Source of the DNA: Bacteroidota bacterium
Lineage (GTDB): Bacteria; Bacteroidota; Bacteroidia; AKYH767-A; JAHEYN01
Assembly: GCA_023251555.1 (NCBI GenBank)
Contig: JAHEYN010000003.1
Location: 1 to 64,000, forward strand
Length of the DNA stretch: 64,000 nucleotides
Direction of reading: 5' to 3'
The notes beneath the pieces were generated by a model that had not been told where the DNA came from, made no database searches, and worked only from the letters and a program-made list of their open reading frames with translations. Made by a program: the position numbers and the translations under genes. Shown piece by piece: positions 13,807 through 41,577 of this stretch (position 1 is its first letter; each line of letters starts with the position of its first letter).

Positions 13807-13978
13807 CTTGCAATTATATAAAAGCTTTAATTTAATTAAAAAAAGACATTATATTTCATATATATTATATCAGATACTTCATCAAAAGTAAAAAAAAATT
13901 TTATAACCACACATCAGTTTGCTTCCTTTGAGTCCAATAACTGATGGGTGTAATAACACATATATACAACCGAACCAA

Positions 13979-16975
13979 ATGAAAAAAACCACCACCTTCT
14001 CCGCCTTTATTCTCTGCACCTGGCTGTATACAGCAGCCGGTGTTCCTGCCGTATACAGGACTCCTGCTGACATGACATCTGTGCAGCATATCAATCCTGC
14101 TGAAATTCCTGACAGGGAAGAGCAGGCTTTTGCAAAACTAATTGCGGGACTTAACCGTTATCTTGTTTCTGTTAAGGAAGTTTATAGCCGGAAAGCCGCC
14201 CGGCCTTCTTCCGGGGTGCAGAAAAAAGATGTTGAAGAAACTCTCAAAAATCTCCCTGTGGCTTTCAGGAAAAACATGGGCCAGTGGGATGAAAAAATTC
14301 TCTACCGGAGCAGCGATGCCAATACCAATGTATATCTTATGAAAAATGGCCTGAGTTTTGGAAGCCGCAGGGAGGCCGGGAAGGAAAATGAAGGAGAGGC
14401 ATCTTCACGAGAGGACAAGCACGAAACACTTGTATGGAATATGTATTTCATGAACACGAGTCCGGGAGTTGCCGTTGCCGGGGAAGGCATGCACGACAGC
14501 CGCTGCAATTATCTCAAAGGCAGCGACCCTTCGAAGCACGTTGTCAACGCTCCGGATTACGAGATGGTCAGTTACAGTCAGCTGTATTCCGGCATTGACC
14601 TCCGGTACTATAAGTCCCAAACAAAACTGAAATATGATTTTATCTTAGCCCCCCATGCTGAAGCGGGCTCAATAGCGCTTCAGTATGAAGGTATAAAAGG
14701 GCTGAACATCAATGCTTCCGGGCAGCTTGAGGTGAGCAATGAATGGGGTACTGTCATAGAAGAACGCCCATATTCATACCAGTTTGTTGAAGGGGTTAAA
14801 AAAGAAGTCAGGGTAGACTACAGGCTTATTGACAGGAACACCTTTGGTTTTACCACAGGAGAGAATTATGATCCTGCCTGTAAGCTGATAATCGACCCTA
14901 TCACCCTTCAATGGGCTACCTGGGTAGGCTCTACGATCTTCAGCGGGGGAGATGATGGCTATCTCACCGACATGACGGTGGATGTAAACGGGAACATATA
15001 CGGAACGGGTTTTTACCTTGACGGGTTTCCCACCATTGCCGGATCTTATGACACTTCATACAATGGGTTCGGCAGCGACAATGATGCCTATGTGTTTAAA
15101 CTCAGTTCTGACGCAAAGACGCTCATCTATTCTACTTACATAGGAGGATGCAATGAGGACAGGGCTAACAGCATTGCCATCAGCAGCGGTGGCGAGGCAT
15201 TTATTGGCGGATATACCAATTCCGGCAGCTGCGGGGTCACCAAGTTCCCTGCTGTCAATGCATTCCAGGGGACAGGCGGGGGAAGCAATGATGGCTTTGT
15301 CTCCAAGCTCAACGCATCGGGCACTGCGCTTGTTTATTCGTCATACATAGGGAACACAGGAAATGATTATGTGGACAGGCTTGCCGTGGGGGCGGGCGGG
15401 GAGGCCTATCTTGCGGGTCATACCAATTCTGCGAATTTTCCGGTTACAGGGGGGGCGTACGATACTTCTTTCAATTTTGCAGATGACATTTTCATAACGA
15501 AAGTTGCTGCAGGCGGTTCTTCGCTGTCGTATTCCACCTTTGTCGGAGGAACCAACTATGAAATTCCGTTCGGGATGTTTGTCAATACTTCGGGGGAGGT
15601 ATATTTTACAGGTAACACTTCGTCCGGTTCAGGGGCTGCCAATCCGTATCCAACCACAGGCGGATCATACAAACCTACCTCCAATGCAATTGGCGGCTCC
15701 CCGGATGCTGTTGTTACCAAGTTAAATGCTGCCGGTTCTGCAATTGTGTTTTCCACTTTTCTCGGTGGCAGCGCTGCACTTGGAAACACAGGCTACGGCG
15801 TAGCCGTGAATTCCGCGGACGAAGTGCTTGTTACCGGGCAAACCACTGCCTCTGCGTTTCCGGTTACAGGGGGATCTTACGACACTTCCTATAACGGCAG
15901 CGGTGACATCTTTATCCTGAAACTAAATTCGGCAGCTTCTGGCCTGGTGTTTTCCACTTTCTTCGGAGGCACGAAAATTGAAGAGACGGCAAGTCTTTCA
16001 GTCGGCCTTACCGGGGATATCTATGTGCAGGGGAATACAAAATCCACCACCACCACCAATGATATTCCTATGACCGGCGGGTCATATGACAGCTCTTTCA
16101 ACGCTTCAGCTTCCGCGCTTCCGAATTACGACACCTATATTGCGCATTTTAATTCTTCTGCAAGCACGCTGCTTTATTCAACCTATTACGGGGGTACCGG
16201 TAATGACTATTCTTTCAACGGCACTACGCCGCCGGCGATGAACATATATAACTGCGGAGGTGTTGAGCAGATGATAGGGGGGATTACCTCCCACTCTGAC
16301 CCGCTTCCTGTTACGGCCGGCGTTTACCAGAATGTTAAAGGGAACGGAGGTGTTGACCAGCCTTATCTTTTTAAGCTTTCTGATGCAGGATGCACGCTGC
16401 CTATCAACCTGCTGTACTTTAATGCAAAGGCGGTACGCAATGAATATGTGCATGCGGAATGGTCCACCTCTTCCGAAACAAATAATGATTTCTTTACCAT
16501 TGAACGCAGCGGGGACGGGGAACATTTTGAGTCCCTGGCAGAAGTACGGGGTAACGGTAACTCCGGCCTTATCAGAAGTTATTCATATAATGACATGAGT
16601 CCGCTGCAGGGGATATCTTATTACCGCCTTAAGCAGACTGATTATGACGGGAGAAACTTTTATGCGCCCAACACTGAACAGGTGAATATCAACCCCGCCG
16701 GAGAGGTGAAGGTCGTTGATATATTCCCCAATCCCGCCGGGGAAAACGTTACCATCTCCATGTTCATTCCCCATGAGATGCGCCGTGGTGTCCGTATATC
16801 TGTGAGCAGTGTGCTGGGGCAGGTGATAATGGAGTATGACATTACAGGGCTTCCGGCCGGCATATACAACCACCTTATCAATTCTGCCTCATGGAGCAGC
16901 GGGGTTTATTTTGTAACAGTTTCTTGCGGGCCAAAAAAGGACGTCCGGAAAATTGTTGTTCGGGAGAATAAATAA
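13979..16975 (+). CDS. SBBP-repeat T9SS type A secreted protein with DUF7948-like N-terminal domain
   Basis: Start moved to MKKTTTFSAFIL (signal peptide); 'FRKNMGQWDEKILYRS' N-terminal domain; SBBP repeats 'LVYSSYIGNTGNDY'; C-term 'FPNPAGENVTISMF...GVYFVTVSCG'. Confidence 0.88.
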   Translation: MKKTTTFSAFILCTWLYTAAGVPAVYRTPADMTSVQHINPAEIPDREEQAFAKLIAGLNRYLVSVKEVYSRKAARPSSGVQKKDVEETLKNLPVAFRKNMGQWDEKILYRSSDANTNVYLMKNGLSFGSRREAGKENEGEASSREDKHETLVWNMYFMNTSPGVAVAGEGMHDSRCNYLKGSDPSKHVVNAPDYEMVSYSQLYSGIDLRYYKSQTKLKYDFILAPHAEAGSIALQYEGIKGLNINASGQLEVSNEWGTVIEERPYSYQFVEGVKKEVRVDYRLIDRNTFGFTTGENYDPACKLIIDPITLQWATWVGSTIFSGGDDGYLTDMTVDVNGNIYGTGFYLDGFPTIAGSYDTSYNGFGSDNDAYVFKLSSDAKTLIYSTYIGGCNEDRANSIAISSGGEAFIGGYTNSGSCGVTKFPAVNAFQGTGGGSNDGFVSKLNASGTALVYSSYIGNTGNDYVDRLAVGAGGEAYLAGHTNSANFPVTGGAYDTSFNFADDIFITKVAAGGSSLSYSTFVGGTNYEIPFGMFVNTSGEVYFTGNTSSGSGAANPYPTTGGSYKPTSNAIGGSPDAVVTKLNAAGSAIVFSTFLGGSAALGNTGYGVAVNSADEVLVTGQTTASAFPVTGGSYDTSYNGSGDIFILKLNSAASGLVFSTFFGGTKIEETASLSVGLTGDIYVQGNTKSTTTTNDIPMTGGSYDSSFNASASALPNYDTYIAHFNSSASTLLYSTYYGGTGNDYSFNGTTPPAMNIYNCGGVEQMIGGITSHSDPLPVTAGVYQNVKGNGGVDQPYLFKLSDAGCTLPINLLYFNAKAVRNEYVHAEWSTSSETNNDFFTIERSGDGEHFESLAEVRGNGNSGLIRSYSYNDMSPLQGISYYRLKQTDYDGRNFYAPNTEQVNINPAGEVKVVDIFPNPAGENVTISMFIPHEMRRGVRISVSSVLGQVIMEYDITGLPAGIYNHLINSASWSSGVYFVTVSCGPKKDVRKIVVRENK

Positions 16976-23123: not shown

Positions 23124-23762
23124 TTATTCCTCTTTAATGTTAATACCATAAATCAACCAGAAAATCCAGATTGCAGTAATTGTAATTGCAATGACAAGAG
23201 GAACCCAGAAAGCAAGAATTGTACATATAGTATAAATTACCAGCACAAAAAGAGCATCCTTCTTCATTTTTCGCATTTGCAGGATAGTCTTTTCACCTCT
23301 CACCAGCTTACCTTTAAGAGCTGTCTGAGCCAGTAAAATCCATCCAATGCCCTGCAGTCCATTCATTGAACTATAAAGAACAACTGCCGGAGCTGCATGA
23401 TCTGTAAAAATATATTCACCCAGCAAGGCGGTTGGAAAAGGCAGAAAGACAATCGTGAGAAGCAAGAACCCATTAGCGTAAGCAAAAGGATGGGATGATG
23501 CCGTCACTGTTTTTAGTATAGCATGGTGATTAACCCATGTTATTAAAATAATTCCAAAACTTAAAAGAAAAGCAAAAACCGAAGGCAGCATATGTTTAAG
23601 TGCAATCCAAAGGTCTTGTGAAGTGGAAATTCGATCCATTGCAGGGATTCTGATGTCCAGGATCAATAAGGTGATAGCAATTGCAAAAACACCATCGCAA
23701 AATGCTTCGAGTCGTGAATTAGGGTTATGCATAATGATATTTCTATAGGATTCCATAGACAC
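23124..23762 (-). CDS. TMEM175-like (DUF1211) potassium channel-family membrane protein
   Basis: 'RLEAFCDGVFAIAITLLILDIRIP' motif at N-terminus plus further TM segments. Confidence 0.85.
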   Translation of the reverse strand: MSMESYRNIIMHNPNSRLEAFCDGVFAIAITLLILDIRIPAMDRISTSQDLWIALKHMLPSVFAFLLSFGIILITWVNHHAILKTVTASSHPFAYANGFLLLTIVFLPFPTALLGEYIFTDHAAPAVVLYSSMNGLQGIGWILLAQTALKGKLVRGEKTILQMRKMKKDALFVLVIYTICTILAFWVPLVIAITITAIWIFWLIYGINIKEE

Positions 23763-24111
23763 AATTTTTTATGAAGTGATAAGATTGTTTGCCTTTTGCT
23801 GAAAGCGATTCCGCATATCCTTTCCAATTAAGAGAAATGGCAATAAGGATGCAAACAATTAGGTCAATAATTCTCCATACAGTTTCGCGAAAATTAATGT
23901 CAACAAAAGGATTGAATAATATTGCAAGTGCTGAATAAACAAATACTCCAAATTTTCCTGTCGTCTTTTTGGAATTGTAAGCAAAATAGATTGATGAACT
24001 AAAGAGAAGCCAACGAAGAAAAGGAGAGTAGAAATGTTGTTCCGTCAACAGTCCGTAAATGAAAGTTACGATAACTGCAAGTTTTAATAGTCGTTCAAAA
24101 AGGTTGTTCAT
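23743..24111 (-). CDS. Hypothetical small membrane protein
   Basis: 122-aa ORF overlapping the TMEM175-like start; several hydrophobic segments. Confidence 0.6.
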   Translation of the reverse strand: MNNLFERLLKLAVIVTFIYGLLTEQHFYSPFLRWLLFSSSIYFAYNSKKTTGKFGVFVYSALAILFNPFVDINFRETVWRIIDLIVCILIAISLNWKGYAESLSAKGKQSYHFIKNCVYGIL

Positions 24112-24336: not shown

Positions 24337-25848
24337 TCAGATGTTGTTATCTAAATACATTTCCAGCAACTTCATTTTATCAATTTTATGACTGTTGCCA
24401 TAAGGAAAGTTTTGCAGTACAAGAATTTCTGAAGGTATCATGTAAGCTGGTAATGCAGATTTCAGATGTTGAGTTATTTTTTCAGTCAAAGCAATTTTAC
24501 TTTCTGCTTCATTTTCAGGTTTAACGAAACTAATGATTCTCTTGACCTCTCCACCCCTTCTCAAGGGCACTGTAGCCACTTCGGCCACTAATTTGGTTTT
24601 TAAAAGTTGAGCATTTATATCTCCCAGCTCAATTCTATAACCATGCAATTTAACCTGTTCATCTTTTCTTCCCAAAAAATAAATTACATCATTTTTGTAA
24701 TAACCATAATCACCTGTTTTGAATGCACGTTCACCATTTATCAAAGTAAATTTTTCTATATTTAATTCAGGGTTATTGCAATAGCCAACAGAAACAAGAT
24801 CCCCGACAATCACAATTTCACCTTCATTATTCTCAGCGGTAGCATCAGGTTGAATTAAAATTTTACTTCCCAATTTAGGATACCCGATCGGCAAAGAGCG
24901 GCTAAATGCAATAATTTCAGGAGTGATTTCAATTTTGGCGGCATAAACTGTTGCTTCAGTTGGCCCGTAGGCATTCACTACTTTACAGCCAGGAAAAAGC
25001 TTCCAAAGTTGTTCTACAACATTTGGCATCAACACTTCGCCTGCAAAATAAAATGTGTTTAAAGAATGCAAATAATTTTTGTTAAAATCGGGATGCTTAA
25101 GATATTGATATGCAAAGCCTGGTGTTGAAACCCAGGTGTTGCAGTTGTATTTTTTGATGTTATTGAAAAACACATCAGCGTTGGCAGCCGTTGAATTATC
25201 CGTCAAAAGAAGTGTGCCACCAAACAATAATGCCGAACAATAATCAAATACTGACACATCAAAAATAAACGGTACCCGGTTAATTACAGCAATATTTTCA
25301 TCGAACTGATAATCTTTTGAGATCCAATCAGCAAATGATTGTAAAGACTTGTGTGTGATTTGAACTCCCTTTGGCTCGCCTGTGCTGCCGCTTGTGAAAA
25401 TGACATAAGCCAGTGGGTCAACTTCGCTGAAATAAATATTTATATACGCTGAAATGGTATTTGAAAATACAATTCCGTTTTCATCTATCACTGTTTTGAA
25501 AAGTGATTTTACCACTTCATTCTTTTCAAAATAAAAACAGGCTTGCGCTGAACTCGCTGACATTATTTTTTGAATTCTGTTAATCGGCATTACAGGGTCA
25601 ACAGGAATATAAGGCCGCCTGGTGATGAAGCAGGCTAAAATAGCGGGTAAAATATTCCCCTGTTTATGTCCGTAAATAATTACAGGGCTGCCTAATGGGA
25701 TGCTAGCATTTAAAATACAATCAATAAAAAAATCAGTTCGTTGCTTTAATTCATTCCATGTATAAGCTTTATCGGAGCCAATTACAGCCGTTTTATCCGG
25801 CCGGTAATTTTCATCTTCAAATTGGCATGTAAAAAAATTAAATTTCAT
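24337..25848 (-). CDS. dltA: DltA-like amino-acid adenylation enzyme (D-alanine--carrier protein ligase)
   Basis: 'YVIFTSGSTGEPKGVQITHKSL', 'NAYGPTEATVYA', 'KTGDYGYYKNDVIYFLGRKDEQVKLHGYRIELGDI'; dlt gene context; start set to MKFNFFTCQ. Confidence 0.88.
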   Translation of the reverse strand: MKFNFFTCQFEDENYRPDKTAVIGSDKAYTWNELKQRTDFFIDCILNASIPLGSPVIIYGHKQGNILPAILACFITRRPYIPVDPVMPINRIQKIMSASSAQACFYFEKNEVVKSLFKTVIDENGIVFSNTISAYINIYFSEVDPLAYVIFTSGSTGEPKGVQITHKSLQSFADWISKDYQFDENIAVINRVPFIFDVSVFDYCSALLFGGTLLLTDNSTAANADVFFNNIKKYNCNTWVSTPGFAYQYLKHPDFNKNYLHSLNTFYFAGEVLMPNVVEQLWKLFPGCKVVNAYGPTEATVYAAKIEITPEIIAFSRSLPIGYPKLGSKILIQPDATAENNEGEIVIVGDLVSVGYCNNPELNIEKFTLINGERAFKTGDYGYYKNDVIYFLGRKDEQVKLHGYRIELGDINAQLLKTKLVAEVATVPLRRGGEVKRIISFVKPENEAESKIALTEKITQHLKSALPAYMIPSEILVLQNFPYGNSHKIDKMKLLEMYLDNNI

Positions 25849-25858
25849 TTTCAAAAAA

Positions 25859-26995
25859 TTAAATACCGCTGCGCCCGCTAAATACATAAATGGCAAACAC
25901 CGCTGCGCAAATCATAACAAGTGTTGAAATTAACTGCACCCATTTAGGGTTTAATTTCCCGAACAGAATATCGTTATCTTTCTTTTTGCACTCAATCAGA
26001 TATGTGTTGTGAATCACTGAATACAGGCCGAAAATCGAACCACTCCAAATATAATTGTGTTGTAAACCATTCCAACACCCCATCAACGCAAATGTGAAAA
26101 ACAAAGAAAGATTTTGTTTCGTCAGCGGATATTTTTTCAACGAATAAAAACCACTCAGCCATTTATAAATTGGCCTGAAAAAATAGTCGCGAAGCCAGTC
26201 ACCCAATGTGATATGCCAGCGCCGCCAAAAGTCCTGCGGATTCACCGCTAAATAGGGATGATTGAAATTGTGCGGTACTTTTATTCCCAACATGTTTCCA
26301 AACCCGACTGCTAATGATGAGTAACCTGCAAAATCAAAATACAAATAAGCGGTGTAAGCAAAGGCGGCATTTATATGCTGCAGAAATGAATGAACATTAT
26401 CTTCGGGCTGCAACCAATATCGCGTAACGATTTCAGCCATCACATACTTCTGTAAAACACCCAACGCAATATTTTGCCAACCTTCAGCAAACAAATTTGA
26501 GTTGAGGTTTCTATAGCCTTCCTCCAGATTGTTTTTGAATCGTTGCCAGCGGTCAATAGGTCCGATTAAAAGTGTTGGTGTGAAAACTAAAAACGAAAAA
26601 TAATCTCTGGGGTGAACTGGTTTTTCATCAGGCTGACGGTCAATAAAAATTTGAATTGTCCGGAAAGTGATATAAGATAATCCGGCAAAATTAAGCCATG
26701 AAATGTTCAATTGCACTTTCAATAAAATCATTGGCAACGCCAGCAATAAAGATACCCAAAGCCGATGCGGGTTTTTGAATTTGAAACTAAAGATGTAGTA
26801 AATTAAATAACTGTAAATGGCAAAACCAATTAGTTGCAGGTGCCGTGTAAAAAAAAACAGCACATAAAATAAAGTTATCGCAAATAATAAATTAGAGTAG
26901 GAAATGAATCTGGAATAAATCGGTTTCAGCAATTGCACTCCTAAGATCAGCACTCCCAAAAGGATATAAAAATCAATGCTGGTAAATGGCAACAT
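25859..26995 (-). CDS. dltB: DltB-like MBOAT acyltransferase
   Basis: 'GNMLGIKVPHNFNHPYLAVNPQDFWRRWHITLGDWLRDYFFRPIYKW' MBOAT signature, multi-TM. Confidence 0.92.
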   Translation of the reverse strand: MLPFTSIDFYILLGVLILGVQLLKPIYSRFISYSNLLFAITLFYVLFFFTRHLQLIGFAIYSYLIYYIFSFKFKNPHRLWVSLLLALPMILLKVQLNISWLNFAGLSYITFRTIQIFIDRQPDEKPVHPRDYFSFLVFTPTLLIGPIDRWQRFKNNLEEGYRNLNSNLFAEGWQNIALGVLQKYVMAEIVTRYWLQPEDNVHSFLQHINAAFAYTAYLYFDFAGYSSLAVGFGNMLGIKVPHNFNHPYLAVNPQDFWRRWHITLGDWLRDYFFRPIYKWLSGFYSLKKYPLTKQNLSLFFTFALMGCWNGLQHNYIWSGSIFGLYSVIHNTYLIECKKKDNDILFGKLNPKWVQLISTLVMICAAVFAIYVFSGRSGI

Positions 26996-26998
26996 TCG

Positions 26999-27139
26999 TT
27001 AAAATTGTTGATAAACAAAAGGAATCTTTGATTTTGTTTTTTTATTCTCATTTTGATGAAAATACAAAAAATAAAACCCAACAATTATGGCTGTGTAAAT
27101 AAAAATATCAGTAAAAAATGCTTTTAAATTGACTTTCAT
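26999..27139 (-). CDS. dltX: DltX-like microprotein, 46 aa (absent from ORF track)
   Basis: MKVNLKAFFTDIFIYTAIIVGFYFLYFHQNENKKTKSKIPFVYQQF*; one TM helix, C-terminal FxYxxF; ATGA start/stop overlap with dltD-like gene; located directly upstream of dltB-like gene. Confidence 0.85.
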   Translation of the reverse strand: MKVNLKAFFTDIFIYTAIIVGFYFLYFHQNENKKTKSKIPFVYQQF

Positions 27140-28341
27140 TTCTTTTGAAAATAATGGTTATAAATTTCCCTGTCAATTAAATACCAACCATATTCGCCCG
27201 TATGCATCAGATCTGTAAGCAATCCCTTTTGATATTTTTCTTTTGCAGGTTGCCACAGATTAAACACCTGAAACCCTTCATCTGCAATAGTTTTCTTTAC
27301 TTCATTCATCATCGGATTTAATTCTTCTAAATTCGAATAGGCATACGGATTTAAAGCCTGAATGATAAAAAGTGCATCAATGTTTTCATCTTTACATAAT
27401 TGTACCAACAACTTTAAATCGTTTAACTCCTGATTAGGAATTGTAGGTGTATACATCATTTTAGGCAAATTGCCTATGACATATTTTTTATAGTAATCAT
27501 CATTCACACCGAAAACATTACTGCATTTATTTTTTTCATTCTGTAATCCGGATTGCAGTAATGAATCCCATTCTGGTTGAGGAACAAGAGATTCGTATTT
27601 ACTTTTTAACGTGTAAATATTTGGCAAACTAAACCGAGTAGGTTTTGTCTTTGAAAATTGAGCCCATACTCTGTAAAGCAGTGCTGATGGAGCATAAAGA
27701 GTTTTATCAATTAAACTTTGCATTTGCAATTTTTGATAAAAAAGATACTTAATACATGGCGTAGGATAATAAATATTCTCAAAATTGCTGCTGATAAAAT
27801 TCAACACACTGTTTTTAAAATTCTCAGAAATTGAATCGTCATGCATAATTTTATTCAACATACCATCATCAACAAATTCTAAAAACGAACTTATTGAAGT
27901 TCCTTTCCCTGATTCACCTGCAAACCAACCCGGAGAAATAATAAATACAATTTTTGATGATGAAGATTTTTTTTCTTTCAATGCTGCTATTTCACAGGCA
28001 TAATTAAAAGATTGATTGCCTGCATGACCAAAAGAAAGCATTGGAATATTTAATTGTTCATTAAAAAAACGATTAGGAATACTTGCAAACTGTTGATTGG
28101 TCAGTTCTGATGAGCCAAGCATTACAAGCTGATTGTTATTCAGGGCATTAAATAAATCTTGCCTGGCTGCCGAACTGCTTTCAAAATTGCTATAAAAATT
28201 CCTGTGCGCTGAGGATATTTCAATTTGTGTGGCAGTGGCAGTATGAAAATAATTCCAGCTTTTAATAATCCCGAGACTGATAAATAAAGCAATAACAATC
28301 GAAAGCAGCTTTCTGGACAATAACATTATTGATGCTTTCAA
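27136..28341 (-). CDS. dltD: DltD-like protein
   Basis: N-terminal TM helix; 'LVMLGSSELTNQ' catalytic-Ser-type motif; 'LLTDLMHTGEYGWYLIDREIYNHYF' Asp/His motif. Confidence 0.87.
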   Translation of the reverse strand: MKASIMLLSRKLLSIVIALFISLGIIKSWNYFHTATATQIEISSAHRNFYSNFESSSAARQDLFNALNNNQLVMLGSSELTNQQFASIPNRFFNEQLNIPMLSFGHAGNQSFNYACEIAALKEKKSSSSKIVFIISPGWFAGESGKGTSISSFLEFVDDGMLNKIMHDDSISENFKNSVLNFISSNFENIYYPTPCIKYLFYQKLQMQSLIDKTLYAPSALLYRVWAQFSKTKPTRFSLPNIYTLKSKYESLVPQPEWDSLLQSGLQNEKNKCSNVFGVNDDYYKKYVIGNLPKMMYTPTIPNQELNDLKLLVQLCKDENIDALFIIQALNPYAYSNLEELNPMMNEVKKTIADEGFQVFNLWQPAKEKYQKGLLTDLMHTGEYGWYLIDREIYNHYFQKK

Positions 28342-28348
28342 AATAATT

Positions 28349-28594
28349 TTATTTATGGCTGATTTTTAATTCAATGTATTTGGTAATTGTTTTCACGGTT
28401 TCAAAATGATGTTCATTAATATCAACAAACGGAATACTAATACCAAACTCATTTTCCAGTTCAACCGCCAAATCAACTATAACGATAGAGTCTAAAAGTT
28501 TTGAGGACACTAATGCCTGATTCGCATCAACTTGTTTGAAGCAAATTTGTTTAATTACTTCAATTATTTTTAACTCGATACCTTGATAATCCAT
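28349..28594 (-). CDS. dltC: DltC-like acyl carrier protein
   Basis: 81 aa; 'SSKLLDSIVIVDLAVELENEFGISIPFVDIN' with DS phosphopantetheine site. Confidence 0.88.
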   Translation of the reverse strand: MDYQGIELKIIEVIKQICFKQVDANQALVSSKLLDSIVIVDLAVELENEFGISIPFVDINEHHFETVKTITKYIELKISHK

Positions 28595-28742: not shown

Positions 28743-29180
28743 CTATTTCAAGTTGTTCAGGTCATCAAGATCTTTTAATCGCCCAGATTTTCTTTTGTTT
28801 TTCAAAAGATCCTGATAACCTATAAAATTTACCATTATGCCATCAATCTCTGCTTCCTTGCGGTTCCTGAAACACTCTTCAAAAGTAACACCATCAATAC
28901 TCACAAGAAGATCAATTCTCAGAGGAGGATATCCAAGCTGAACAACGTTTGATTCCTTTGTGAAATCGTCTTCAGTTAGCCTATAAGAAGAAAAGCCAAA
29001 CTCATTTACACAGTTTAATATCCTTTTTGCATTCTCGGGTGTAGGATTTAACCAAATATCCAAATCGCCAGTATATCTTGGATGACCGTGGATGCCAACT
29101 GCATAGCCACCGACGACAAGATACTCAGCTTTGTTTTTGATTAACAATTCTACAAACTCTCTGAAATCCCGGCTGAACAT
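28743..29180 (-). CDS. Nucleotidyltransferase-fold protein (toxin-like)
   Basis: 'YLVVGGYAVGIHGHPRYTGDLDIWLNP' GG...DxD motif. Confidence 0.75.
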   Translation of the reverse strand: MFSRDFREFVELLIKNKAEYLVVGGYAVGIHGHPRYTGDLDIWLNPTPENAKRILNCVNEFGFSSYRLTEDDFTKESNVVQLGYPPLRIDLLVSIDGVTFEECFRNRKEAEIDGIMVNFIGYQDLLKNKRKSGRLKDLDDLNNLK

Positions 29181-29612: not shown

Positions 29613-29921
29613 TTATATCTGAAGCGTCAACTTTAGATGGCCTCCAAGTCCTTGCTGAATAATCTTCATCAATGTAGATAAGCGGATATCAGATGCATTA
29701 TGCTCAATCCTTGAAATATATGCCTTGTTGGTTCCGCATTTACTTGCAAGCTGTTCCTGTGTCATGCCGCGTTTTGTTCTTGCCGCCTCAAGTAATACCC
29801 CAAGTCGGAAGGCCTCGAATTCCTGCTCCCAGTTTTCACGCCTGGAAACTCCACGTTTCCCGTATTTGGAATCAAGAATTTCGTCCAGGGAGGTAAGGTT
29901 CTTACTTGCTTTTGCTTTCAT
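29613..29921 (-). CDS. higA: HigA-like XRE-family antitoxin
   Basis: 'RTKRGMTQEQLASKCGTNKAYISRIEHNASDIRLSTLMKII' HTH_XRE. Confidence 0.85.
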   Translation of the reverse strand: MKAKASKNLTSLDEILDSKYGKRGVSRRENWEQEFEAFRLGVLLEAARTKRGMTQEQLASKCGTNKAYISRIEHNASDIRLSTLMKIIQQGLGGHLKLTLQI

Positions 29922-30249
29922 GTTTATAGTCCTCCATTATTTTAAGTGCTTTCACGATTTCCTCTTTTGGTGTCCTTGTCGTCTTTTTCTGAAATGCATT
30001 ACCCGGAATTATCAAATTTCCCTTATCAAAAAATGAGAAGATGCGGTATATGTTGCCACCTGCTTCAACACGAATTTCATAAAGGCCTTTGGTGCCTTCC
30101 ATGTGTTTAAAATATTTCTCGGGCACATGCTGTGTCACTTTTATCAACTTCAGCGTCCACTCAATTTTTGCCTGAACGATTTCTGTCTGACTTTGGTAAA
30201 AGTCGAGAAAGTATCGCTTATAGGCTACAACTTCACGTTCAAAACTCAC
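29902..30249 (-). CDS. higB: HigB-like RelE-superfamily toxin (Gp49-like)
   Basis: 'YFKHMEGTKGLYEIRVEAGGNIYRIFSFFDKGNLIIPGNAFQKKTTRTPKEEIVKALKIMEDY', directly upstream of and overlapping the HigA-like gene. Confidence 0.88.
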   Translation of the reverse strand: MSFEREVVAYKRYFLDFYQSQTEIVQAKIEWTLKLIKVTQHVPEKYFKHMEGTKGLYEIRVEAGGNIYRIFSFFDKGNLIIPGNAFQKKTTRTPKEEIVKALKIMEDYKHESKSK

Positions 30250-39222: not shown

Positions 39223-41577
39223 ATGAAAACCCATTCCCTGATAGTCATTTTCCTGTTGTGTTTTGCCGCTGCTTTTGCACAGACTGATAAGGCATCGCTG
39301 CTTAAGCAGTATGAAGGCATGAGCAGTGATGACATCAGTAATTTCGAGAAGCTGAAATCCATGGGGGCATCTCCCGAGGAAATACAGACATTTATTGAGG
39401 CACAGCGCTTAAAACAGGCAAAGAAGAAAGGAACAATAAAAAAAACTTTTACTGACAGCACGAGGACCACTTACCAGGACACCTCAAAACTGCGCTTTCT
39501 CCACCCTGATTCCCTTGAAGAGAAAGAAAAAGCTCCCCCTGCTAATATTTTCGGGCAGGAATTTTTTCGCAATAAGGATATCAGGCTGTTTGACAAAGCC
39601 CGTGAAGCCAAAGCCCCTGAAAATTATGTTCTCTCTGTGGGGGATGAAATAAGTATTTCCGTATGGGGTTTTTCGGATTACAATGAAGCTTTTACTATCG
39701 AAAATGACGGTTCCATACAACCTTCGGAGACAGGCAAAATATACCTGAAAGGCCTCACCTTTGCCGATGCAAAAACCCTCATAACAAATAAATTTTCGGG
39801 GGTTCTTAATCTGCGTAACTCCAAAATTGATGTTGCCCTCGTTTACTCGCGGGTCATTACAGTAAACGTGGTCGGGGAGGTTTTCAACCCGGGATCCTAT
39901 ACCATTCCCGGCATCAATACCGCTTTTAATGCCCTGATGGCTGCCAATGGCCCTACCGACGGAGGTTCCGTAAGAAAAATTTATGTGAAGCGCGGAGGTA
40001 AAACAATAAGAACCCTTGATGTTTACCAGTTTATGTTTAACCAGGACGGGCAGGAAGACTTTTTCCTCGAAGACAATGATTATGTGGTGGTTCCTCCCGC
40101 CGAAAAAATCGTTACCATTGCAGGAGAGGTAAACAGGCCTTTCAAGTATGAACTTGTTGACAAGGAAGATGTCAGCAGCCTGATCCGTTATGCCGGCGGG
40201 CTTACCCCCGTTGCCTTCACCAGAAATCTGCAGGTGGCACGGGTAACCAACAATAAGCGTAACCTCATAGACATCAGCCTTGATTCCCTGAAGCTGAATA
40301 AAAAAACATTTGAGCTGTATACCGGAGATTCCGTTATGGTAAGGCGCCTGCCCGATGTGATAGAAAACTATGTGGAAGCCCGCGGAGTGTTTGCCGTTCC
40401 GGGGAAATATGCTTTTAAGCCGGGTCAAAGAATTTCCGACCTCGTGAAAAAAGCCGAAGGAGTGCTTGACGATGCTCACCTCGGAAGAGCTTACCTGATA
40501 CGCCAGGATGAAAATCTCCGCAACCAGTATATCGGCGTAAACATCGGAGAAGTACTTAAGGACAGTATGAGCCCGGGTAATTATGAGCTCAAAAGGTATG
40601 ATGTGCTGCTGCTGCTTTCCAAGAGGAGATTCATTGACCCGGACAGCATCTCTGTTTTCGGGTCTGTCAGGAATACGGGGAGTTACCTTTTCGGGGAAGG
40701 GCTTACCGTGAAGGATGCCATTTTCCTTGCCGGAGGGTTTAAGAAAGAAGCTGCCAATAACCGGATTGAGATATCCCGCCTGCTCAGTTTCGGGAAAGGG
40801 AACTCCGACAGCGCTTCGAGGGTGATTATCAAATCAGCCCAGGTAAGTGCTGACCTCAGCATAGAAAAAGGAGTCGAAGAATTCCGCCTCCAGCCTTATG
40901 ATCAGGTTTTTGTGAGAACCATTCCCCAGTTTGACTACCAGAAAAATGTGACAGTGATTGGCGAGGTAAATTACCCGGGGACATATTCCCTTGTGAGCAA
41001 TGGTGAAAAAATTACGGACCTCCTGGTGCGTGCCGGGGGTGTTACGTCATTTGCATTCCCGGAAGGATCCCGCCTCCACAGGATGCAGGATAGCATAGGA
41101 TATCTCTTCCTGAACCTGAAAGAAGTGCTGCAAAACAGCTATTCTCCTACCAATTATGTGATGAAAGAGGGGGATACCCTCTTTGTTCCCAAAGTTAACG
41201 AGCTTGTTAAAGTTAAAGGTGCTATCAATTATCCCAGCCCGGACTCCCTTAAGCAAATCAATGCACCTTACGTGAAAGGGAAAAGAGCAGGTTATTACAT
41301 CCGTAATTACGGAATCGGCTATGCCAAAGGCGCAAAACGGAATGCGACATATGTAGAACTGGCAGGGGGCTTTATCCGGAGAACCGCATCCCTCGGCTTT
41401 ATCCGTTTTTATCCGAGGGTGCAGAAGGGAGCTACTGTTCATGTGCTTTACAGGCCGAACAAAATCAAGAAAGACAAGGAGAAAAGCACTCCCGTGGACT
41501 GGAACAAAACAATTGAAAGCCTCACTGTAAAAGCTACCGCTATTCTGACTTTGCTGGTGCTTGTCAGCAAACTCTGA
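39223..41577 (+). CDS. Polysaccharide export protein with SLBB repeats (Wza-like)
   Basis: 'ENYVLSVGDEISISVWGFSDYNEAFTIENDGSIQPSETGKIYLKGLTFADAKTLI' plus repeated 'V.GEV..PG.Y.......(I/L)..L...AGG'. Confidence 0.92.
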   Translation: MKTHSLIVIFLLCFAAAFAQTDKASLLKQYEGMSSDDISNFEKLKSMGASPEEIQTFIEAQRLKQAKKKGTIKKTFTDSTRTTYQDTSKLRFLHPDSLEEKEKAPPANIFGQEFFRNKDIRLFDKAREAKAPENYVLSVGDEISISVWGFSDYNEAFTIENDGSIQPSETGKIYLKGLTFADAKTLITNKFSGVLNLRNSKIDVALVYSRVITVNVVGEVFNPGSYTIPGINTAFNALMAANGPTDGGSVRKIYVKRGGKTIRTLDVYQFMFNQDGQEDFFLEDNDYVVVPPAEKIVTIAGEVNRPFKYELVDKEDVSSLIRYAGGLTPVAFTRNLQVARVTNNKRNLIDISLDSLKLNKKTFELYTGDSVMVRRLPDVIENYVEARGVFAVPGKYAFKPGQRISDLVKKAEGVLDDAHLGRAYLIRQDENLRNQYIGVNIGEVLKDSMSPGNYELKRYDVLLLLSKRRFIDPDSISVFGSVRNTGSYLFGEGLTVKDAIFLAGGFKKEAANNRIEISRLLSFGKGNSDSASRVIIKSAQVSADLSIEKGVEEFRLQPYDQVFVRTIPQFDYQKNVTVIGEVNYPGTYSLVSNGEKITDLLVRAGGVTSFAFPEGSRLHRMQDSIGYLFLNLKEVLQNSYSPTNYVMKEGDTLFVPKVNELVKVKGAINYPSPDSLKQINAPYVKGKRAGYYIRNYGIGYAKGAKRNATYVELAGGFIRRTASLGFIRFYPRVQKGATVHVLYRPNKIKKDKEKSTPVDWNKTIESLTVKATAILTLLVLVSKL

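Follow-up and report, generated by a model that had tools for sequence, protein, structure and literature searches.

The locus considered here raises the question of whether a member of the Bacteroidota, a phylum in which we know of no teichoic acid, employs a DltX-type microprotein, and what such a protein would do there. The locus lies in a stretch of 64,000 nucleotides (called the window below, at its full length) from a genome assembly of 2.84 Mb, within a complete minus-strand operon of the order dltC-dltD-dltX-dltB-dltA (Table 1).

Read on the minus strand from 27139 to 26999, the open reading frame (ORF) in question translates as MKVNLKAFFTDIFIYTAIIVGFYFLYFHQNENKKTKSKIPFVYQQF, i.e. 46 amino acids, followed by TAA. 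It comprises a transmembrane (TM) helix (residues ~5-27), a basic/polar linker and the sequence FVYQQF at the very C-terminus, which would be located on the non-cytoplasmic side. The Kyte-Doolittle scale shows a single hydrophobic segment, with a best mean of 1.88 over 19 residues at residue 7, and among 1,816 stop-to-stop ORFs of at least 20 codons in the window this is the only one that ends in F.Y..F. Its start codon shares the tetranucleotide ATGA (27139-27136) with the stop codon of dltD, and its TAA, which is in frame with dltB, is separated from the ATG of that gene (26995) by 3 bases. A sequence-only reading of this DNA had proposed a minus-strand microprotein with one TM helix and an FVYQQF end, overlapping the dltD stop and lying 3 nt from dltB; the translation, the helix at residues 5-27 of the structural model and the two junctions bear out this description, and the coupling to dltD and dltB that it considered probable can be regarded as supported. 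Its statement that the gene is unannotated holds for curated families, whereas on enterobacterial plasmids the equivalent ORF carries the label 'hypothetical protein'.

Table 1. Features of the dlt operon in the window and the evidence for their assignment.
Feature	Position	Strand	Basis
dltC-like carrier protein, phosphopantetheine Ser36 in LLDSI	28349..28594	-	Pfam PP-binding 1.2e-6, NCBIfam DltC 3.6e-9, alignment
dltD-like SGNH acyltransferase	27136..28341	-	Pfam DltD 4.8e-50, NCBIfam LTA_DltD 5.5e-36
dltX-like microprotein gene, 46 aa	26999..27139	-	translation, ortholog alignment, hhalign, model
codons of motif F41-V-Y43-Q-Q-F46	27002..27019	-	sequence
Tyr43 codon, predicted acyl carrier	27011-27013	-	acylated residue is Tyr in DltX/PatA (PMC12148441)
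dltB-like MBOAT, 378 aa	25859..26995	-	NCBIfam LTA_dltB (TIGR04091) 1.1e-72, phmmer to StDltB 6bug/8jem, Foldseek
DltB His261 codon CAT (= StDltB His289, RRWH), conserved	26213..26215	-	alignment
DltB Asn309 codon AAT, at the StDltB His336 position ('invariant' MBOAT His)	26069..26071	-	alignment
dltA-like amino-acid:carrier-protein ligase	24337..25896	-	NCBIfam D-alanine--poly(phosphoribitol) ligase 427 bits (best model); PDB 3fcc 4e-97

Alignments find the A-domain motifs of DltA, the LDS serine of DltC and the Ser/Asp/His residues of DltD all intact, the latter with the Ser in GSSEL (residues 77/78) and the DxxH motif (377/380). The window DltB scores 245 bits against NCBIfam LTA_dltB (TIGR04091), under the 375-bit equivalog cut-off of that model. 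The dltD ORF starts with TTG and has an ATG five codons downstream; the dltA ORF also opens with TTG, and, judging by its relatives, the ATG at 25848 is the likelier start. Upstream of the operon, on the same strand, lie a nucleotidyltransferase-like ORF with weak matches to DUF6036/DUF2204 (28743-29180) and what appears by eye to be a pair of a RelE/HigB-type toxin and a helix-turn-helix antitoxin-like protein (29613-30249), while downstream of dltA two small membrane proteins with DUF6804 and TMEM175-type channel domains are encoded (23124-24111, minus strand), homologues of which were not found beside other dlt operons. Elsewhere the window encodes a Por_Secre_tail (T9SS) protein (13919-16975), as would be expected of a member of the Bacteroidota.

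Without exception, the complete diderm operons examined, a set of about 32 genomes that covers Bacteroidia, Alcaligenaceae including Bordetella hinzii, other Pseudomonadota and, in addition, enterobacterial plasmids, have the microprotein gene next to dltB, mostly with dltD on its other side, and the C-terminus of the microprotein always has the form [FY]xYQ[QK]F. When the window DltB was used as query, 12 of the 395 genomes searched in the class and 4 of the 42 in the order were found to encode a DltB (the window's own genome being counted in both), and a further phylum-wide sample of 396 Bacteroidota genomes yielded no additional operon. All 12 other Bacteroidia loci that were fetched have the order C-D-X-B-A, one of them cut by a contig end, and their short ORF ends in F[VI]YQQF, so that, with the window included, 13/13 Bacteroidia operons have the microprotein gene flanked by dltD and dltB; it is present in the split locus L006 as well. 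The named matches among GTDB genomes belong to the Alcaligenaceae (Paralcaligenes, Achromobacter and Bordetella hinzii; L007-L016), where the gene order is that of Bacteroidia and the ORF ends in FQYQQF or YEYQQF. Five other Pseudomonadota genomes have the order D-X-B-A-C with ORFs of 39-40 aa ending in FEYQ[QK]F, and in genome G1049 an ORF with the end FVYQQF lies ahead of the genes, which are ordered B-A-C-D. The microprotein has been also identified on plasmids of Klebsiella electrica, Enterobacter cloacae and K. pneumoniae (dlt operons L163, NZ_CP041250.1; L164, NZ_CP071862.1; and NZ_CP063883.1). The two plasmid records inspected show the order D-X-B-A-C with insertion sequences on the flanks, a 40-aa DltX labelled 'hypothetical protein' and a DltB labelled 'MBOAT family O-acyltransferase'; a search of E. 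coli genomes for the plasmid operon, at the sensitivity of megablast, found no match.

Codons of the motif differ synonymously between these genes (TTT/TTC, TAT/TAC, CAA/CAG) while the residues remain constant, and in Achromobacter/Bordetella the pooled pN/pS over the 38-codon tail is 0.09. The Tyr and the Gln that follows it are invariant in an alignment of 18 orthologs, as is the whole YQQF in alignments A1 and A3, and conservation peaks in the exposed tail and not in the helix.

Seven operons from Bacilli served for comparison with Gram-positive DltX; in these, dltX precedes dltA and its product ends in [FY]IYN[DEQ]F. Alignment of the diderm and Bacilli profiles with hhalign pairs both the helix and the motif of these ~46-aa proteins with a TM helix (probability 94.3%, P 1e-7). 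The Pfam DltX family (PF12459; curated cut-off 25 bits) does not match the window microprotein and places none of the operon microproteins over its threshold; it matches 6 of the 18 diderm orthologs weakly (best E 4.6e-4), being the family matched by the most members. Its one above-threshold match in the same genome (contig C24) falls inside a 1305-aa frame and looks spurious. Nine Gram-positive genomes reached through MBOAT loci yielded no DltX match over the cut-off, and neither phmmer with DltX nor profile searches against the PDB retrieved a DltX structure. On these sequence comparisons the microprotein is best described as a divergent DltX; common ancestry with the Gram-positive protein is likely and not proven, because the proteins are just 46 aa long with a TM helix. 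The proposal of the sequence-only reading that a Gram-negative-type genome encodes a DltX-type microprotein whose C-terminal FxYxxF is conserved is thus upheld by the profile match and by conservation that is complete in the related operons, where it had named loss of the ORF or of its terminal motif as evidence against itself.

The partner MBOAT protein departs from the textbook in a way that the sequence-only reading did not mention. The MBOAT His has been called invariant, with Asn, Asp or His as the second residue (PMC12979248), and universally conserved in a 2025 paper (PMC12148441), and His336 has been described as the active residue of DltB (PMC11035591). At this position Asn is present in 31/31 diderm DltB sequences checked: the resulting WNG occurs in 13/13 Bacteroidia and 10 Alcaligenaceae, and further in three relatives from the order search, five other Pseudomonadota and one plasmid copy, while WHG is kept in 7/7 DltB from Bacilli and 70/70 AlgI-type MBOATs. 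In the set used for the phylogenetic tree, Asn is found in 24/24 diderm DltB and His in 7/7 Gram-positive DltB and 10/10 AlgI; two more active-site positions have switched in the same 24/24 versus 7/7 pattern (StDltB Tyr345 to Ser, His349 to Phe). Diderm DltB form one side of a branch (support 98/95) and are sister to Gram-positive DltB, with AlgI outside and separated from the DltB clade at 100/100. The simplest history on this tree would be that His gave way to Asn once, at the origin of the diderm branch, and the 31 Asn sequences should therefore not be counted as 31 independent events.

According to the alignment, the catalytic pair is reversed in diderm DltB, where the loop bears the His and the helix the Asn. 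It is unlikely that these enzymes are dead, because their operons are complete as well as conserved, and because D-alanine is added to the surface by the dra locus of Bordetella pertussis (PMC4448142, PMC9410548), a relative of the B. hinzii whose DltB was compared here. However, since the 'invariant' His is Asn, the Gram-positive mechanism cannot simply be copied to these proteins, nor can transfer to Tyr be assumed to proceed alike. Diderm Dlt systems may represent a separate branch in which the MBOAT is active with its catalytic pair exchanged, the His being located on the re-entrant loop and the Asn on the core helix, in which two more active-site residues have changed, and in which a co-adapted YQQF/YQKF shuttle peptide serves a non-teichoic-acid acceptor in the envelope; this is a combination that we propose tentatively and would not yet favour as a whole. 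The window DltB, 378 residues long, lacks the C-terminal extension of two helices and FxYxxF that is typical for AlgI/PatA; among AlgI-type MBOATs, a C-terminal motif was found in 68 of 70 loci. A second MBOAT of the same genome (L002, contig C53) has its own FIYNQF end and WHG, and adjoins an ORF of ~310 aa.

Structure prediction was carried out for a DltX-DltB readthrough fusion, in which TAA was read as Gly. The model (mean pLDDT 88.5, pTM 0.87) supports a well-folded DltX helix (pLDDT 87-96), and a Foldseek search returned the known DltB structures 8jem (TM 0.77) and 6bug (0.75), both among the first three matches. The motif and linker have pLDDT ~55 and the motif is not placed, and the fusion forces it near the N-terminus of DltB; the short artificial link itself may prevent its placement.

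As regards the cargo, Cys269 contributes to the choice of D- over L-alanine in DltA of B. cereus. In the pocket alignment its equivalent in the window dltA ORF is Ala285, so the window protein lacks this mark of a D-Ala-selective pocket, while it resembles DltA in the pocket Asp and the motifs nearby. Of the 11 other Bacteroidia DltA, 8 have Met or Ile at this position and three keep the Cys, as do the Alcaligenaceae. D-Ala should not be assumed as the cargo, because the residue that aids D/L discrimination is altered. Comparison of the flanks of dlt operons revealed no conserved partner gene, and hence no acceptor candidate from the neighbourhood; the only cluster it yielded was a weak one, of large secreted-type proteins at four loci. 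LPS, capsule or a glycoprotein are candidate acceptors. The possible acceptors include a surface polysaccharide, and a Wza-type polysaccharide export protein with SLBB domains is encoded at 39223-41577 (plus strand), at a distance of ~11 kb, but nothing ties this gene to the operon.

Taken together, we consider it highly probable that the ORF encodes a divergent DltX ortholog, which spans the membrane once and is the acyl-shuttle subunit of an MBOAT/SGNH machine for aminoacyl transfer, specified as a whole by the dltCDXBA operon. The likely cycle is as follows. DltA would adenylate D-Ala or a small related amino acid and load it onto Ser36 of DltC; DltB would take over the aminoacyl group at its cytosolic face and channel it via the pore to the periplasmic side, onto Tyr43 of DltX; and DltD would receive it on its serine and esterify a non-teichoic-acid acceptor in the cell envelope. 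Diderm DltB would carry out the transfer with His261 and Asn309 instead of the usual His/Asn/Asp plus invariant His. The shuttle role of the microprotein is suggested by its homology to DltX, and the acyl-Tyr step by chemistry that has been demonstrated for the FxYxxF motif of PatA and reported for Gram-positive DltX (PMC12148441); catalysis, cargo and acceptor are likewise predictions.

An ORF this short, under gene-caller cut-offs and without a curated family match, might be dismissed as a chance or non-coding frame in an intergenic gap, but its presence beside dltB in all complete diderm operons, the low pN/pS and a motif unique among the ORFs of the window already refute this, leaving it a negligible probability; the microprotein is probably a translated gene under selection. 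It is improbable, too, that the microprotein is a convergent shuttle peptide, e.g. one that began as the C-terminal helix in an AlgI-type MBOAT, that has nothing but the motif in common with Gram-positive DltX. Such an origin would agree with the missing Pfam match of the window protein, with a gene located between D and B and not before A, and with the similar motifs at AlgI-type C-termini; however, hhalign aligns the helix as well as the motif, and the DltB tree, which groups diderm with Gram-positive proteins and keeps AlgI apart, makes a shared DltX the simpler reading and ranks recruitment from an AlgI C-terminus low.

Granted that the microprotein is a DltX relative, it could serve as a structural subunit that merely stabilises DltB-DltD, with the acyl group passing directly from DltB to DltD or to the acceptor, now that the catalytic residues of diderm DltB have changed. 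The three replaced active-site positions and the lack of a confident place for the motif in the model are in line with such a role, but an invariant C-terminal Tyr would be superfluous in a scaffold, and the retention of this residue and the next Gln in every ortholog, with conservation centred on the exposed tail, renders it quite improbable. As to the amino acid, the operon could work like Dlt and yet move L-Ala or Gly, for instance, which would not be D-alanylation. The Ala, Met and Ile residues in place of the selective Cys in Bacteroidia favour this, whereas the DltA-like pocket Asp and motifs, the best matches to DltA models and the Cys kept in Alcaligenaceae and three Bacteroidia speak against it; we regard another cargo as rather unlikely, and as compatible with the DltX shuttle proposed above.

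If correct, the DltX shuttle extends an acyl-transfer mechanism from Gram-positives to Bacteroidota and several Pseudomonadota, supplies a missing component of Gram-negative Dlt/dra systems, and offers a named Tyr for testing how diderms esterify their surface. The 'universally conserved' MBOAT His (PMC12148441) is broken in 31/31 genomes checked, which makes the textbook catalytic assignment directly testable. Dlt systems affect resistance to antimicrobial peptides, and some of the operons, those on enterobacterial plasmids, have insertion sequences on either side.

Gram-negatives with dlt operons are already known, and a DltX of the same topology has been mentioned for them. According to PMC5541007, the dlt operon of Dickeya/Pectobacterium (Pandin et al. 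2016) is Gram-negative with an antimicrobial-peptide phenotype, and one sentence there states that Gram-negative DltX has the same topology and no sequence similarity; these bacteria, unlike the window's, are not Bacteroidota, and the text consulted mentions neither homology of the motif nor the DltB substitution. The Dlt-like dra locus of the Gram-negative Bordetella (Taneja et al. 2013, J Bacteriol 195:5102, as cited in PMC4448142 and PMC9410548) transfers D-alanine onto an unidentified outer-membrane component; the sources consulted do not mention DltX there. The operons of B. hinzii (L015) and Achromobacter (L008-L016) share with the window the C-D-X-B-A layout, the microprotein and a WNG DltB, and differ in that alcaligenacean DltA keeps Cys269. 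Our literature search, which covered largely papers free of subscription, found no report of the Bacteroidota microprotein, of diderm-wide homology of the motif, or of the His to Asn replacement in DltB.

With DltX (PF12459) of the Gram-positive dltXABCD operons, the microprotein shares its size (~45-50 aa), a positive N-terminus, one TM helix, an exposed FxYxxF tail and an operon that also encodes DltA/B/C/D. It differs from Gram-positive DltX in scoring under the Pfam threshold, in a tail of the form FxYQQF instead of [FY]IYN[DEQ]F, in gene position, as it is flanked by dltD and dltB where the Gram-positive gene precedes dltA, and in a partner DltB with Asn at the His336 position. The split arrangement of DltB and DltX seen in the window has been reported for Gram-positives (PMC12148441). 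PatA/PatB and other AlgI-type pairs also use an acyl-Tyr shuttle in a C-terminal FxYxxF, from which the group is handed to an SGNH partner (PMC12148441); unlike in the window, however, their motif is fused to the MBOAT on extra helices, their donor is acyl-CoA with no carrier protein, and the His of WHG is kept (70/70).
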